NCBI RefSeq assembly: GCF_011602485.2
Contig: NZ_CP050022.2
Span: 5,476,001-5,540,000, forward strand
Reading direction: 5' to 3'
Length of the DNA: 64,000 nucleotides
Origin: Bradyrhizobium sp. 1(2017)
GTDB lineage: Bacteria; Pseudomonadota; Alphaproteobacteria; Rhizobiales; Xanthobacteraceae
Shown here: positions 16,155 to 23,750 of the stretch, piece after piece
How positions within the stretch are numbered: position 1 is the first letter of the stretch
Layout: each line of letters opens with the position of its first letter
The notes under the pieces: model-generated
Database searches by the model: none
What the model saw: the letters and a program-made list of their open reading frames with translations, nothing else
What the model was told of the DNA's origin: nothing
Program-made: the position numbers and the translations under genes

Positions 16155-16955
16155 TCAATAAAATCTGTGGAGATGATGGATCGGCCCGTGGCCGTGACCG
16201 ACGCTGAAACGGTCAGCGGCACCGATCGCCGCGCTGATCCAGGCCTTGGCATGGCGCACGGCCTGCTCGAGGTTCTCGCCCTTGGCCAACCCCGCCGCGA
16301 CCGCCGACGACAGCGAGCAGCCGGTGCCATGGGTATTCGCGGTGGCGATGCGGGGCGCAGCGAGCGCGATGGTGTTGTCGGCGTCGACCAGATAGTCGAC
16401 GCTCTCGGCGCCCACCCCGTGCCCGCCCTTCACCAGGACGGCACGGCAGCCCAGCGCCAGCAGGCGGCGTCCCTGGCTTTCGATCGCGGCCTCGCTGGCC
16501 GCGACCGGCTCGTCGAGCAGCGCGGCGGCCTCGGGCAGGTTCGGCGTGATCACCGACGCCAGCGGGATCAGCCTCGTGCGGAGGGCCTCGACGGCCTCGG
16601 CGGCCAGCAGCCGGTCGCCTGATGTCGCCACCATCACGGGATCGAGCACCACGTGACGGGGCGCCCAGCGCGACAGCGCGGCCGCGATGGCTTCGATGCT
16701 CGCGACCTGCGCCACCATGCCGATCTTCACGGCGCCGACATCGAGATCGGAAAACACCGCGTCGATCTGCGCGGTGACGAACTCCGCCGGCACCGCGTGA
16801 ATGCCCGTGACGCCGCGCGTGTTCTGCGCCGTCAGCGCCGTGATCGCGGAGGCGCCATAGACGCCGAGCGCGGCAAACGTCTTCAGGTCCGCCTGGATGC
16901 CGGCGCCGCCGCTGGAATCGGAGCCGGCGATGGTGAGTGCGACCGGGGTCGTCAT
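16155..16955 (-). CDS. thiD: hydroxymethylpyrimidine/phosphomethylpyrimidine kinase
   Basis: 266 aa from [21 protein letters not shown]. The [18 protein letters not shown] segment, [14 protein letters not shown] and the C-terminal GTGCSLSSA anion hole identify ThiD. It phosphorylates HMP and HMP-P in thiamine synthesis. An in-frame ATG 12 bases upstream (16967) is an alternative start. It is alone here, with no other thi gene and no TPP riboswitch recognised upstream. Confidence 0.92.
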
Positions 16956-17246
16956 CGCGGAACGCATTTGCTTGAGGACAAGGTCATGACCTGTCCTAGC
17001 GCGACCGTGGAACCCCAGCAAGCGTGAGGGGGCGCAGCAACGATGATTCGCGGCAGCAGCTGCGTCTGCGACCCGCGCGGCATGGCCCGCGCAATCGTAC
17101 GGCCTTGAAAAATCGAGCCTCGCCATAGCCTTGCCAGCCTGCCCTTGGCCTCCACAGCGATGAGTGAGACGTTAGGTGGTGAAATCGTCCAGCGACGCCA
17201 ATTGCGCGAGCCGCCCCCCGGCTCGCACGTTTTCCCGGGTGGAATT

Positions 17247-19226
17247 ATGTGGGCCTTTCTTGAACGTCTCCTCGACTCCTCGATGCTGTCGCCGCACGGC
17301 ATCTGCCTGTTGTGGGAACCCGAGCTGATCTGGCTCCATGTCGTTGCCGACACCTGCATCGCGGCCGCCTATTTTTCGATCCCGTTTGCCCTCGCGATCC
17401 TCGTTACCAAGCGGCGTGACCTCAAATTCGGCTGGGTGTATTGGGCGTTCGCGATCTTCATCATGGCGTGCGGCCTGACCCACGTGCTGTCGATCTACAC
17501 GCTATGGGTCCCGATCTACGGCATCGAGGGCATCGTCAAGGCGGCCACGGCGGTCGCGTCCGTCTTCACCGCCGCTGCGCTCTGGCCGCTGCTGCCGAAG
17601 ATTCTGACGATCCCTTCTCCGTTCGAGCTTCGGCAGGTCCAGGCCGCGCTCGAGGAAGAGGAGATCAAGAGCCGCGACGCGACGCTGCTGCTGCAGCAGG
17701 TCGGCGAGGCCCAGCGCGCGATGCGCGACAGCGTGGCGCGTCTCACCGCGATCGTCGAGACCGCAGTGGACGGCGTCATCCTGTTCGACGCGCAGGACCG
17801 CATCCTGCTGTTCAATCCCGCCTGCGAGCGCCTGTTCGGCTATCGGGCAAACGAGGTCATGGGCCGGAACGTCGGCATGCTGATGCCCGAGCCGGCCGCC
17901 GGGTCCGACAATCCCGCGCGGCATTTTGCGACCGGCGGCGAGGCAGTCGGCCAGCACAGGGATGGATCGACCTTTCCGATGGACCTGTCGGTGGGCAAGG
18001 CGCGGCAGGACGGCGAGCTGATCTTCGTCGGCATCATCCACGACCTGACCGCACGCAAGCTGACCGAGCAGCAGCTGCAGCAGGCGCAGAAGATGGAAAC
18101 GGTCGGCCAGCTCTCCGGCGGCATCGCCCACGATTTCAACAATCTGTTGACCGTCATCATCGGCAACGCCGAGCATCTCAGCGAGCAGCTCAAGGTCAGG
18201 CCCGACCTCAAGCGGTTTGCCGACGACATCTGCCAGTCGGGCGAACGGGGCGCCGAGCTGACGCAGCGACTGCTCGCCTTCAGCCGCCGCCAATTGCTCC
18301 AGCCGCAGATGATCGATTGCCGCGGCCTGCTCGATTCCATGTTCAAGCTGCTCAAGCGCACCTTGCGCGAAGACATCGAGATCAGGACGAGCTCCGGTCC
18401 CGGCACGATCATGGCATTTGCCGATCGCGCCCAGCTCGAATCCGCCGTGCTCAATCTCGCGCTCAACGCGCAGGACGCCATGCCCGCAGGAGGGCATTTG
18501 ACGCTGAGCACGGAGCTGACCGCGATCGACGACGACTATCGCGCCCTGCACCCCGAGGTTGCATCCGGCGCCTACGCATTGATCTCGGTCACCGACGACG
18601 GCGAAGGCATGACGGTCGACGTCATCGCACGCGCCTTCGAGCCGTTCTTCACCACCAAGGAGGTCGGCAAGGGCTCGGGCCTCGGCCTTAGCATGGTCTA
18701 TGGCTTTGCCAAGCAGTCAGGCGGCCATGTCTCGATCTACAGTGAGCCGGGCCTCGGCACGACGGTCCGGATCTACCTGCCGCACGCCGCCGCGGGGGAA
18801 TCGCAGGCCGACCTTGCGGAAGGCGAGGACACAGCGCCGCGCGGATACGAGACGATCCTGATCGCCGAGGACGATCCCTTCGTTCGCTCCTCCGTCATTC
18901 GCAGGGTGGAAGCGCTCGGATATCGCGTCGTTGCGGCAGTCAACGGCAAGGAGGCGTTACAGCAGCTGCGCACCGACCCCGGCATCGACATGCTGTTCAC
19001 CGACATCGTGATGCCCGGGGGCATGAGCGGCTGGGAGCTTGCCGATCAGGCGCGGCGGATTCGCCCGGGCCTGCCCGTCCTGTTCACCTCCGGCTATGCG
19101 CTGGAGACCCTGGTCGAGCAGGGCCGCGCGCATGCGCAAGCGATCGTGCTGACCAAGCCCTACCGCAAGGCCGAGCTCGCGCAGCGGCTTCGGGACGCAT
19201 TCGCCGCGGCGGCCCTCGCCTCCTGA
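17247..19226 (+). CDS. hybrid histidine kinase with ETR1-like ethylene-binding membrane domain
   Basis: 659 aa. Residues about 28-120 form three membrane helices matching the ethylene-binding domain of plant ETR1. D35, Y42, P46, I72, C75 and H79 keep the same spacing as ETR1 D25, Y32, P36, I62, C65 and H69, where Cys and His hold Cu(I). Then come a PAS domain (about 162-272), HisKA with phospho-His H295 (GGIAHDFNN), HATPase (about 395-512: NLALNAQDA, DDGEGM, GLGLSMVYG) and a receiver domain (about 535-655) with phospho-Asp D586 and K637. ATG 17247 starts the domain; the earlier open codons lack features. Probably senses ethylene and signals by phosphorelay; no separate response regulator is adjacent. 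Confidence 0.9.
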   Translation: MWAFLERLLDSSMLSPHGICLLWEPELIWLHVVADTCIAAAYFSIPFALAILVTKRRDLKFGWVYWAFAIFIMACGLTHVLSIYTLWVPIYGIEGIVKAATAVASVFTAAALWPLLPKILTIPSPFELRQVQAALEEEEIKSRDATLLLQQVGEAQRAMRDSVARLTAIVETAVDGVILFDAQDRILLFNPACERLFGYRANEVMGRNVGMLMPEPAAGSDNPARHFATGGEAVGQHRDGSTFPMDLSVGKARQDGELIFVGIIHDLTARKLTEQQLQQAQKMETVGQLSGGIAHDFNNLLTVIIGNAEHLSEQLKVRPDLKRFADDICQSGERGAELTQRLLAFSRRQLLQPQMIDCRGLLDSMFKLLKRTLREDIEIRTSSGPGTIMAFADRAQLESAVLNLALNAQDAMPAGGHLTLSTELTAIDDDYRALHPEVASGAYALISVTDDGEGMTVDVIARAFEPFFTTKEVGKGSGLGLSMVYGFAKQSGGHVSIYSEPGLGTTVRIYLPHAAAGESQADLAEGEDTAPRGYETILIAEDDPFVRSSVIRRVEALGYRVVAAVNGKEALQQLRTDPGIDMLFTDIVMPGGMSGWELADQARRIRPGLPVLFTSGYALETLVEQGRAHAQAIVLTKPYRKAELAQRLRDAFAAAALAS

Positions 19227-19330
19227 GCGCTGGACCTGCGCCTGGCGGCTTGTGCAGGCGGCCGCCCGCTTGCTAAATCCGGGCGGGTTTGGCCTATTAG
19301 CCGGCCAGATATGCTTTCGGAGTGACCGCG

Positions 19331-19576
19331 ATGGTTCCCTTTTTCGTCCAGATCAAATGCAAGCTCGGCCAGTCCTATGTCGTCGCCAACGCGCTCGCCG
19401 AAGCCGAGATCGCCTCCGAGATCTACTCCACGGCCGGCCAATACGACCTCCTGGTGAAGTTCTACGTCGACAAGGACACCGACATCGGTCACTTCGTCAA
19501 CGAGAAGGTGCAGGTGCTGCCGGGCATCCAGGATACCCTCACAATCATCACCTTCAAGGCGTTCGGCACCGGCTAA
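19331..19576 (+). CDS. stand-alone Lrp/AsnC ligand-binding (RAM) domain protein
   Basis: 81 aa: MVPFFVQIKCKLGQSYVVAN then SEIYSTAGQYDLLVKFY and LPGIQDTLTIITFKAF. This is the C-terminal effector-binding (RAM) half of Lrp/AsnC regulators without the DNA-binding half. Such stand-alone domains oligomerise and bind amino acids. ATG 19331 is taken over a GTG three codons upstream. It lies 104 bp after the kinase gene and may share its transcript, but a functional link is not shown. Confidence 0.85.
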   Translation: MVPFFVQIKCKLGQSYVVANALAEAEIASEIYSTAGQYDLLVKFYVDKDTDIGHFVNEKVQVLPGIQDTLTIITFKAFGTG

Positions 19577-20002
19577 GGTGTGCAATCACAGAGAGCCGAA
19601 TGGGAAGTCCGCTTCCGAGACAGCACAGCGGACCAATTGCACTCAAAGCGAGCTCTTCGGATTCTTACAATCGCAGACATCATCCAGCAGGTGACGCCCT
19701 CTCCCGCTGGCAAGGCTCAACGCGCTGCATGGATGACGGTCGCGTCGAACTCCACGACAAATGCGGTCGAGCGATCAATCCGCGGCATCAACCCGCTTGC
19801 CCATCTCAGCCAAGTTCAGTCAAAAAACGAATGGTCTCCAAGTGGTTGGGACCATTGCATGGTAGCCCGGGCGCTCCGCGGAGGAACAATTCGGCGGCCC
19901 GATCGCGTGCACTTATGCCGCGCTCAAAATGTGAAATAGTTCATTGAACCGACCACCCTGGAATGCTCTTTTCGCATAGATCGTGAGCGCGGGGGGCGGG
20001 CA
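19577..20002. other. 426-bp gap without recognised gene
   Basis: Contains a weak hairpin GTCCGCT / AGCGGAC (19607-19633) just after the AsnC-type gene, possibly its terminator. The remainder shows no family I recognise on either strand, and the reading frames in it look non-coding. It marks the left edge of a compositionally different segment. Confidence 0.4.
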
Positions 20003-21034
20003 ATGCCCAAAGGACCGCTTGTTTCGATAGCAGTTGCTGTCTGGGTGCTTTGCACAGGCGGCCTAGCATGGGCGGTTCGCCCAGCACCGATAGACCCCGC
20101 AGCCATCCTCCGTACCCAGGTCGACAAGATTGGTCCGGGTTCAGTTGGCCTAGATCCTTCGGAAATGAGGGTCGGCTATCGCGAGCCATTAGCCGTCCCG
20201 CCACTCCAACGTCGTGGCGTGGCTCAAACTGAACAGATCGAGGCTGGCAGCTTCATGCGGGCTCGCCCATTCGGCGAAGGATTCACGGCAACATCGGGTC
20301 GCGATGACCGGCAAGCCGAGCGGCTTTATGCCGAGCTTCCAGCGAAGTCGGGCGAGCAGACCGGTGCACCGCGCGACAAAATGTATCTCTTCGTTTCGCG
20401 AGTTCTGGGCAGCACGGAGGATGTGTGGGAGGCAATCTTCGCGTCCGATCGCCTAACTTATCGGCCACCCCGTCTCGTCCTGTACACAAGCGCCACCAAC
20501 GCAGCCTGCGGCTTGGCCGAGAAAATCATGGGACCATTCTATTGTCCTGATGATCAGAAAGTCTACCTCGACCTTTCGTTCTTCCAGGAGATGCAGACTG
20601 AACTTCGCGCCTGCGATTCGAGCGGCGCCGACTGTCAACTTCCTCAGGCCTATGTGATAGCCCACGAAATCGGACACCACGTTCAGAACTTGCTGGGAAT
20701 TCTTCCAAGGGTGCGCGAGCTTCAAGCGAGCATGGAAACGGAGGCGGAGAGAAACCGCCTGCAAGTACTTCTCGAGCTGCAGGCCGATTGTCTCGCCGGC
20801 ATCTGGGCGCGCAAAATTAAAGAGAAAGCGAAGATCACCGCGAGCGACATAGCAGCGGCGATTCGAACGACAGAAGCCCTAGGCAATGATACGTTGCAAA
20901 AACGTGCCTTGGGGTACGTCATGCCTGACTCGTTCACTCATGGCAGCGCTGCGCAGCGCCGTCATTGGTTCGATGTCGGTTACACAACTGGATTGGTGAA
21001 GAGCTGCAACACCTTTGCTGGAGCACGGCAATGA
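20003..21034 (+). CDS. neutral zinc metallopeptidase, YpfJ-like
   Basis: 343 aa. Signal peptide or anchor at about 7-24. The Zn_peptidase (PF04228-type) core runs from about residue 115: TNAACGLAEKIMGPFYCPDDQKVYLDLSFF-type features (AACG, FYCP, VYLDLSFF) and the zinc motif HEIGHH. A downstream ELQADCLAG supplies the third ligand (Glu), and SFTHGSAAQRRHWFDVGY closes the domain. The first 110 residues are longer and unlike those of common YpfJ proteins. A G-rich ribosome site precedes ATG 20003. Likely periplasmic; physiological substrate unknown. Confidence 0.85.
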   Translation: MPKGPLVSIAVAVWVLCTGGLAWAVRPAPIDPAAILRTQVDKIGPGSVGLDPSEMRVGYREPLAVPPLQRRGVAQTEQIEAGSFMRARPFGEGFTATSGRDDRQAERLYAELPAKSGEQTGAPRDKMYLFVSRVLGSTEDVWEAIFASDRLTYRPPRLVLYTSATNAACGLAEKIMGPFYCPDDQKVYLDLSFFQEMQTELRACDSSGADCQLPQAYVIAHEIGHHVQNLLGILPRVRELQASMETEAERNRLQVLLELQADCLAGIWARKIKEKAKITASDIAAAIRTTEALGNDTLQKRALGYVMPDSFTHGSAAQRRHWFDVGYTTGLVKSCNTFAGARQ

Positions 21035-21187
21035 GGCCCGGGCTTCCCAACCCTCAACAGTCGATGTCCGACGACTGCATGCTACCGAGCTGGACCGCTG
21101 GCGCTACGGAAGCCGCCGCTGGACCAGGAGAAACTCTGCGACGAACGCCTGCCCGATCTCTTGCATATTCAGTTTGAGGGGAGTGCC

Positions 21188-22819
21188 GTGCCTCAGCATT
21201 GGTCGAAATACCTGGCTGTTTGGTCAATTGCTTTCGCAGCGAGCTTCGGGAGCAGCCACGCGCAACCGATCATCGCCGAGCGAGACGTCCTTCAGATTTG
21301 CGAGGCGTTCTCGAGGAAAGCCCCGGAGCAAATGCCGACAATTGTCCGGCCGGACGCTGCCAGGAATTTCGTTGGAAGATACGCGCGCTTTTCGGACCGG
21401 CTACGAGGCTGCCTATCGGCATCGGAGCGCGAGCGCGAACCAAATAGCGTGACTTTCTTGATTCAGAACACTCAGTACGAGAGTTACTGGAGGTTCTTCA
21501 CTGACTCCAACTCGGTTCAACGGATTTCCATCGAGAGGTTCAGGCCCGTCACGCTGGCGGATGATGAGCCATGGCGCGCGCCTTTTTCTGCGGCGTTAGC
21601 CCCGATCAGGCCGACGATTAAAACCGGCGGCATCAAAGTCGACCCGGACATCCGAGGCGGCGCGATTCAGAAAGGGGATCAAAAAACAGCGAATGAGGCT
21701 AAAGATACGGACAAATCCTCGGAGAACCCAGCGCAAGACTCCAGAACCGACACACGCATAGTCGAGTTTTTCTATGCAACGAACCGCAAAGAGTCGGATA
21801 CTCCCCCCGATGTCGAAGGCAATCCCCAGCCCGCACTCACAAGCGATGGACCTCCTGTCTACAGCTTAAACGGTTGGACTGCTGTCGGCGGCTATACAGG
21901 CGAGCGCAACCCTGATCTGAGCGTCGGGATCGTTCGCGTCCGGGTGCCTGAGGGACACCACATCGGAAACCTGGAATTGCCCCCGAGCCTTAAGCTCTTC
22001 GGATTCAAGTTGAGAAGAGACACAACTGACCCAACCAAGCACTTTACGATTCGGAGCATCGAGAAAACAGACGAAGCGAAATGGATAAAGACGCTGGCAT
22101 CAACAAAGAAGAAAAAGGCTCTCGTGTTTATCCATGGCTTCAACACCAAATTCCGCGACGCCGTCTTCCGGGCAGCGCAGATAACTTGGGACCTTCAGTT
22201 CAGAGGCACCACAATCCTATTCTCGTGGCCGTCTCGCGGAGACATCGCGGACTATCTCTATGACAAGGAAAGCGCGTTGGGTTCGCGCACGGCCTTTCTT
22301 CGCGTCATCGACGATCTTTACAAAGCCGGATATGACGACATCGATGTGATAGCTCACAGTATCGGGAACTTGATCGCAGTCGAGGCGCTATCAAACAGCG
22401 CCGCGACACGATCACCCAAAGCCATTGCGCAGTTGATCATGGTCGCGCCCGATGTGGACCGAGACATGTTCGTTCAAGGCATTTCCGGCGCTGCAAAGGT
22501 CACCAAGGGGCTCACACTTTACGCCTCCAAGAACGACAGGGCCTTGCAGCTATCGAAGCGTATTGCCGGGGGTGTCCCGCGCGCAGGGGACGTACCTGAA
22601 GCCGGTCCGGTCGTTTTGCCGGGACTTTGGACGATTGATGTCAGTCTCATTGGAGATGAATTGTTCGGGTTAAATCATAACACGTTCGCCACTACGCGAA
22701 ATGTGCTCAACGATCTTGCGATACTCCTTATGGAAGGCAAGCCTCCACCACGGCTAATTGAAGTCCGGGGCTTCCCTGAGCCTCCCCAGAAAGCCGCGTA
22801 CTTCCGCTACATACCCTAG
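21188..22819 (+). CDS. exported alpha/beta hydrolase, DUF900 type
   Basis: 543 aa from GTG 21188, preceded by GAGGGGAG 3 bases upstream. The N-terminus YLAVWSIAFAASFGSSHAQ is a signal peptide. Residues about 25-190 are of unknown fold with a charged linker. The DUF900 hydrolase domain (about 195-530) starts FFYATNRK and carries the oxyanion-hole motif FIHGFN and nucleophile Ser in DVIAHSIGN. A region with VAPDVDRDMF probably supplies the Asp and LNHNTFA the His. Downstream of the metallopeptidase on the same strand (about 150 bp gap). Substrate unknown. Confidence 0.82.
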   Translation: MPQHWSKYLAVWSIAFAASFGSSHAQPIIAERDVLQICEAFSRKAPEQMPTIVRPDAARNFVGRYARFSDRLRGCLSASEREREPNSVTFLIQNTQYESYWRFFTDSNSVQRISIERFRPVTLADDEPWRAPFSAALAPIRPTIKTGGIKVDPDIRGGAIQKGDQKTANEAKDTDKSSENPAQDSRTDTRIVEFFYATNRKESDTPPDVEGNPQPALTSDGPPVYSLNGWTAVGGYTGERNPDLSVGIVRVRVPEGHHIGNLELPPSLKLFGFKLRRDTTDPTKHFTIRSIEKTDEAKWIKTLASTKKKKALVFIHGFNTKFRDAVFRAAQITWDLQFRGTTILFSWPSRGDIADYLYDKESALGSRTAFLRVIDDLYKAGYDDIDVIAHSIGNLIAVEALSNSAATRSPKAIAQLIMVAPDVDRDMFVQGISGAAKVTKGLTLYASKNDRALQLSKRIAGGVPRAGDVPEAGPVVLPGLWTIDVSLIGDELFGLNHNTFATTRNVLNDLAILLMEGKPPPRLIEVRGFPEPPQKAAYFRYIP

Positions 22820-22820
22820 A

Positions 22821-23750
22821 CTAGCTCCCCTGCTTGCGCTTCGGCGGCGTCGGCCCATCCACCGGCGGCAGCGATTTGAGATAGTCCGCCATCGCTGCGA
22901 GATCTGAGTCCGGCAAGAGCGACGTGTTCTTGATCACGCGCGTCATCGCGCCGCCGACGCTGTCGCCATCGGGCAATTCGCCGGTCTTGAGGAAATAGGC
23001 GATATCCTTCGCGCTCCAGTCGCCGAGGCGTTTCTGGGTGATGTTGGGCACCCAGCCCTCGCCTTCCGGATTGGGGCCGCCGGCAAAGCGCTCGCCGGAG
23101 ATGATGCCGCCGAGCGCATTGCGCGGGCTGTGGCACTCGGCGCAATGGCCGAAGCTGTTCACGAGATAGGCGCCGCGCTTCCATTCCGCCGACTTCGCGC
23201 CGTCGGCGACGACGACGGGCTTGCCGTCCATGAACAGAAATTTCCAGATGCCGATGTTGCGCCTTACGTCGAACGGGAAGCTGACGTCGTGGTCACGCAC
23301 TTTTCCTGCAACGGCCGGCAGCGTTTTCAGATAGGCAAAGAGATCGAGCACGTCCTCGCGCCTGGCGCGCTGATAGGAGGTGTAGGGAAACGCCGGAAAG
23401 TAGTGCTGCCCGGACGGCGAGACCCCATGCATCACCGCATTGACGAAATCGGCGTCGGTCCATTTGCCGATGCCGTCGGCCGGATCGGGCGAGATGTTCG
23501 GCGCGTAGAACGTTCCGAATGGCGATTTGATCGCGACGCCGCCGCCCAGCTTCAGACGATCGGGCTGATTGGGAACCGCATGGCAGGACGCACAGCCGCC
23601 GGCGTTGAACATCACCTCGCCATTGGCAATGTCAGGCGCACGGGGCGGCGCGGTGCTCGCAGCCGCCACCACCGGCGCGCTGAGCCACCAATAGACGCCG
23701 GCAGCGGCGATCGCGACGAGCAGCGCCACGAAAATTGTTCGTTGCAACAT
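22821..23750 (-). CDS. membrane-anchored diheme c-type cytochrome
   Basis: 309 aa. N-terminal anchor (about 5-25) and two haem-binding motifs, CASCH near residue 53 and CAECH near residue 203. Axial Met candidates follow in each domain. The domain order and the segment PNISPDPADGIGKWTDADF match cytochrome subunits of membrane dehydrogenases (alcohol/gluconate type), although no dehydrogenase gene is beside it. Periplasmic electron carrier. It ends 1 bp from the convergent hydrolase gene. Confidence 0.9.
   Translation of the reverse strand: MLQRTIFVALLVAIAAAGVYWWLSAPVVAAASTAPPRAPDIANGEVMFNAGGCASCHAVPNQPDRLKLGGGVAIKSPFGTFYAPNISPDPADGIGKWTDADFVNAVMHGVSPSGQHYFPAFPYTSYQRARREDVLDLFAYLKTLPAVAGKVRDHDVSFPFDVRRNIGIWKFLFMDGKPVVVADGAKSAEWKRGAYLVNSFGHCAECHSPRNALGGIISGERFAGGPNPEGEGWVPNITQKRLGDWSAKDIAYFLKTGELPDGDSVGGAMTRVIKNTSLLPDSDLAAMADYLKSLPPVDGPTPPKRKQGS

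Follow-up and report, generated by a model that had tools for sequence, protein, structure and literature searches.

Does Bradyrhizobium sp. 1(2017) possess a receptor for ethylene, and if so, is that receptor connected to nodulation? The question was raised by one gene in the window, the 64,000-nucleotide stretch of contig NZ_CP050022.2 that was analysed here. The initial annotation described the product of this gene as an ethylene-receptor-like hybrid histidine kinase, which might tune symbiosis in a plant-associated bacterium.

Domain organization and the putative ethylene pocket

The gene is one uninterrupted reading frame (17247..19226, + strand), which starts with ATG and encodes a 659-residue protein. 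From the N- to the C-terminus, the protein contains one ethylene-binding domain (EBD; PF25487, residues 26–121, 17322..17609, +), one PAS domain (residues 165–266, 17739..18044, +), one HisKA and HATPase pair (residues 287–513, 18105..18785, +) and one fused receiver domain (residues 537–648, 18855..19190, +). The ETR1_N match is far beyond chance; with a score of 124.5 bits (cut-off 27, E = 2.2e-36), it pairs residues 26–121 with positions 1–96 of the 97-position profile. The PAS, HisKA (residues 287–349), HATPase_c (residues 393–513) and Response_reg (residues 537–648) matches all pass the Pfam cut-offs, so the predicted PAS-HisKA-HATPase-REC order of the remainder holds domain by domain. 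The kinase and receiver motifs are intact. His295 in AHDFNN is the phospho-acceptor of HisKA, and Asp586 in FTDIVMP is that of the receiver; together with HisKA, HATPase and the receiver, they make the protein a hybrid histidine kinase. The HisKA and HATPase pair also carries N-box-like and G-box-like motifs. A promoter and terminator scan of 16950–19500 detected neither element.

The initial annotation had placed D35, Y42, P46, I72, C75 and H79 in register with the copper and ethylene pocket of Arabidopsis ETR1, and the translation has all six at those positions. Y32 of ETR1, the counterpart of Y42, is counted here as a binding residue, as in that annotation. Two residues that had gone unnamed, I45 (ETR1 I35) and K98 (ETR1 K91), are also present and complete the known set. 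In the ETR1 modelling study, seven residues are treated as essential for binding, with C65, H69, I35, P36, I62 and D25 among those named (PMC6586836). All seven are kept in the 659-residue kinase; D25, C65, H69 and K91 were mapped through AzoEtr1 of Azospirillum, whose D35, C75, H79 and K98 are aligned with them in the AzoEtr1 study (PMC11819568).

Conservation among relatives was analysed after rows shorter than 90 residues and identical rows had been dropped, which left 149 rows after the length filter and 136 distinct ones. Within 106 distinct canonical rows, which were chosen by C75 and H79 and include the 659-residue kinase, D35, Y42, I45, P46 and I72 all fall among the 19 of the 94 remaining columns with at least 95% conservation (p = 0.0002, kinship ignored). 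In a separate alignment of 131 domain rows from 128 loci, from which the own-genome loci L001, L073 and L084–L088 were omitted and to which L135 contributed no domain, position 75 is Cys in 126 rows and position 35 is Asp in 125, and position 79 is His in 120 and Arg in 10.

To place these residues, residues 1–160 were modelled as a monomer with AlphaFold2, using 35 input sequences (the 659-residue kinase and 34 rows from the 71 loci described below). Confidence in the resulting model is low (mean pLDDT 69.7, pTM 0.41), and the model does not test the copper site; because the C65/H69 copper sites lie in the dimer interface in the published ETR1 model (PMC6586836), no monomer model can test the pocket. 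Helices are predicted, with moderate confidence and with packing that is not to be trusted, at residues 25–55, 63–87 and 91–121. D35, Y42, I45 and P46 are located on helix 1, I72, C75 and H79 on helix 2, and K98 on helix 3. The model supports three helices bearing these residues and nothing finer. C75 and H79 would face the same side in any case, since they lie at i and i+4 on a single helix. A PDB sequence search with residues 1–166 found no solved relative, the three matches (E 0.8–0.99) being unrelated.

With this family match and residue register, the protein almost certainly belongs to the ETR1/AzoEtr1/SynEtr1 family of ethylene receptors. Together with the AzoEtr1 comparison given below, they uphold the description as ethylene-receptor-like, and ethylene binding by the 659-residue kinase is predicted as likely.

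Gene neighbourhood and relatives

The own genome holds a single ETR1_N match. Within the genus, 101/146 genomes carry the domain; among genomes drawn across the phylum it occurs in 29/398, in 28 of them over the cut-off. A scan of genome contigs, from which records of the own genome may be missing, yielded 71 loci, and 65 of these have Bradyrhizobium in the record title. Judged by similarity to the domains of the 659-residue kinase, 54 of the 71 (L002–L053, L067, L070) share its EBD-PAS-HK-REC architecture. Others are EBD-HK-REC, with no match to its PAS domain, and in a few the frame is short or the gene is divided between two frames. Split EBD kinase genes were seen at L069:1553-3504 and L079, by decay or sequencing error.

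Upstream, the gene has a divergent neighbour, thiD (phosphomethylpyrimidine kinase; 16155..16970, − strand). In the fetched flanks, thiD precedes the receptor gene in 53 of the 54 loci of the same architecture (L051 is the exception, and the distance is ∼1.8 kb in L052) and in 0 of the 17 other loci, some of which have short flanks. In part of Bradyrhizobium, the receptor gene is thus syntenic next to thiD. Downstream, a Zn metallopeptidase gene and then a DUF900 hydrolase gene (19227–22820) separate the kinase from a cytochrome c gene. Tblastn searches with the metallopeptidase and hydrolase gave no match in the fetched flanks of the 71 loci; in these relatives the cytochrome gene often lies ∼0.3–0.8 kb past the kinase and is more than 4 kb away in 11 loci. 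The 19227–22820 segment is a variable insertion spot. Repeats in 19100–23000 are just short imperfect pairs, 74–82% alike, and a tRNA scan of the whole window found none, so this is no tRNA-associated island. On a Novosphingobium plasmid typed as conjugative, an EBD kinase without PAS match (L091:4986-6462) is accompanied by a separate response-regulator gene and lies near cas9 and cas1 genes; the receptor can therefore travel on plasmids.

Altered receptors were found in relatives, outside the window. The genus search gave 31 low-scoring ETR1_N matches (43–91 bits, fragments excluded), all of which were aligned. At position 79, the copper-ligand His is replaced by Arg in 29 of them (L095, L097–L099, L101, L102, L107, L108, L131, L132, L152–L170) and by Cys in L100, and it is kept in L096. 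C75 is kept in 26 of the 29 R79 rows, in which Y42F, I45T and P46A are usual; 23 of the 31 domains read D-F-T-A-F-(V or A)-C-R-K at positions 35, 42, 45, 46, 71, 72, 75, 79 and 98. The domain precedes both HK and receiver matches in 27 of the 31, in frames of 533–601 residues; the exceptions are the short frames L096, L107 and L108 and L168, which has no receiver match. Two of these proteins were checked by Pfam, and ETR1_N, HisKA, HATPase and receiver were all over the cut-off. When the 136 distinct rows were placed in an EBD tree, all 28 distinct sequences with R79 clustered with the single C79 row at local support 1.0, a grouping that involves long branches and one method. The 31 domains come from 28 of the 146 genomes, of which 11 also have a canonical match and 17 do not; for the R79 forms, which leave out L096 (G131, H79), the corresponding numbers are 27, 10 and 17.

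Four of the 71 loci (L064:5887-7065, L065:5923-7071, L066:5881-7068 and L071:5983-7074) encode EBD-HisKA-receiver proteins in frames of 364–396 residues, with just a short HK match ahead of the receiver; these frames are too short to accommodate an ATPase domain. L065, the one of the four that was run against Pfam, gave HisKA and receiver matches and no HATPase. Such proteins would depend on another kinase acting in trans or serve as phosphotransfer elements.

The Arg79 kinases and the ATPase-less proteins are more surprising than the 659-residue kinase itself. One tentative reading, to which we give somewhat less than even weight, is that Bradyrhizobium diversified its ethylene receptor in parallel with plants, into the canonical hybrid, Arg-for-His paralogues and ATPase-less forms. 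Under this reading, the Arg79 group is proposed to be a receptor with a lost or changed ligand, the ATPase-less forms would depend on a partner kinase, and the 10/146 genomes that carry both canonical and altered receptors could have signalling sets mixed from the two. The His-to-Arg paralogues also offer a natural test of the residues needed by the copper site.

Ligand, signalling output and the symbiosis question

We consider it probable, as an overall explanation, that the gene encodes an ethylene-binding sensor kinase of the ETR1/AzoEtr1/SynEtr1 type with a fused receiver. The three membrane helices of each subunit probably place a single Cu(I) between C75 and H79, close to where the subunits of the dimer meet, and would bind ethylene, by analogy with the proven relative AzoEtr1. 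The signal would then pass via helix 3 (K98), the linker and the PAS domain to the HisKA/HATPase pair, and His295 is expected to donate its phosphate to Asp586 of the receiver. Because no response-regulator gene adjoins, the onward signal would have to run in trans, by way of a histidine phosphotransferase or the regulator of another kinase; alternatively, the fused receiver may serve as an internal gate.

The ligand in Bradyrhizobium could be other than ethylene. The site is of the Cu(I)-thiolate/imidazole type, and it might be kept for sensing copper itself, another small alkene or CO instead of plant ethylene; the lack of nodC and nifH matches over the cut-off in the own genome, the spread of the family over 29 of the 398 genomes sampled across the phylum, and plasmid matches in isolates from lake and activated sludge would all fit such a role. 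However, all seven ETR1 binding residues are kept, including the hydrophobic I45, P46 and I72, and the EBD is 56% identical over positions 16–121 (49% over 147 residues by tblastn) to that of AzoEtr1 from strain Sp7, a domain with high affinity for ethylene: according to PMC11819568, the first 130 residues of AzoEtr1 bind 14C-ethylene saturably. A different ligand is unlikely on this evidence, and ethylene is the ligand that we favour.

The claim that the kinase has no adjacent output partner holds as far as separate genes go, as no response-regulator gene adjoins, but a receiver is fused in cis. When ORFs of at least 80 residues in the fetched flanks were scanned for extra receivers (phmmer, E < 1e-3), L051 was the one locus, of the 54 with this architecture, to have an ORF similar to the receiver of the 659-residue kinase. 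A receiver ORF lies 3′ of the kinase in Azospirillum brasilense (L089) and Novosphingobium ES2-1 (L091), and the fused receiver takes its anatomical place. Elsewhere in the own genome, 14 places resemble nearly the whole core of the HK-REC half with scores of at least 131 bits, the best being 51% identical. Since this half belongs to a common hybrid family of the own genome, the EBD appears to be mounted on a local chassis. The same half scores 338 and 312 bits against the NCBIfam CckA models, and the genome encodes a ChpT-like protein (128.9 bits), both of which would suit a kinase that feeds the ChpT phosphotransferase like CckA and links ethylene to cell-cycle or motility control. The score is far below the cut-off of 1000, for which reason CckA identity was rejected, and the 14 other matches to the core argue that the resemblance reflects a common chassis and no specific link; an output through ChpT is thus very improbable. 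Six of the 14 paralogue loci were run on NCBIfam (E 1e-150) and gave one hit, PRK13557, under the cut-off.

The proposed tuning of symbiosis is not supported, either in the own genome or across the genus. A rhizobial symbiosis regulator that senses ethylene of the host in the course of nodulation might be expected from the occurrence of the gene in Bradyrhizobium and from the ACC deaminase gene (acdS) of the own genome, which scores 590.8 bits, over the cut-off, and makes contact with plant ethylene physiology plausible. The enzyme says little by itself, because acdS is over the cut-off in 127/146 genus genomes. Against such a regulator, neither nifH (best score 24.6 bits) nor nodC is over the cut-off in the own genome. 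NodC is over the cut-off in 82/146 genus genomes. Counting as canonical any receptor of ∼125 bits or more, whatever the state of its kinase part, and as non-canonical the genomes with broken copies only (G070, G094), we found canonical receptors in 82/146 genomes. NodC occurs in 46/82 genomes with and 36/64 without a canonical receptor (Fisher odds ratio 0.99, p = 1, phylogeny ignored), and in 29/51 versus 53/95 genomes when only frames of at least 640 residues are counted. These counts give no sign that the canonical receptor and nodC are linked, and a tie of the gene to nodulation is not supported; a role in reading host ethylene during nodulation is highly improbable. Occurrence with and without nodulation genes suggests that the kinase has a general role in soil or rhizosphere and not one in nodulation. 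An influence on attachment or on metabolism, of the sort seen in Azospirillum, is conceivable, at a little under even chances.

Comparison with known ethylene receptors

Bacterial ethylene receptors are already known, and the Bradyrhizobium kinase adds an example, not a new kind. Ethylene sensing is known in cyanobacteria, and the first proteobacterial case concerned one species (PMC11819568); a syntenic Bradyrhizobium receptor would add a major group of bacteria from soil and roots. Literature searches turned up no ethylene- or copper-binding measurement for a Bradyrhizobium member. Like the present protein, Synechocystis SynEtr1 (Slr1212) is a bacterial EBD histidine kinase; different from it, SynEtr1 doubles as a light receptor and has a separate response regulator (PMC11819568).

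AzoEtr1 of A. brasilense is a proven ethylene receptor, and its D35A and C75A mutants do not complement, a result to which the authors attach two-plasmid caveats (PMC11819568). Its D35, C75, H79 and K98 carry the same numbers as in the 659-residue kinase, the EBD-PAS-HisKA-HATPase order is the same (Sp7 record), and the Sp7 copy (L094) scores 132 bits for ETR1_N in Pfam. However, AzoEtr1 (525 residues) has no receiver, and a separate 135-residue response-regulator gene follows it. The kinase half is also distant: the frame-broken MTCC4038 copy (L089) has an HK score of 81 bits, compared to 410–498 in the 54 loci built like the 659-residue kinase.

Like Arabidopsis ETR1, the 659-residue kinase combines an EBD, a kinase and a fused receiver, and all seven binding residues are in register, with D25, C65 and H69 placed through AzoEtr1. 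Where the present protein has its PAS domain, a GAF domain follows the membrane part of ETR1 (PMC6586836), and signalling by plant receptors is mostly independent of histidine kinase activity (PMC11819568). The fused receiver sets the Bradyrhizobium kinase apart from the proteobacterial AzoEtr1 and recalls the plant receptor ETR1.
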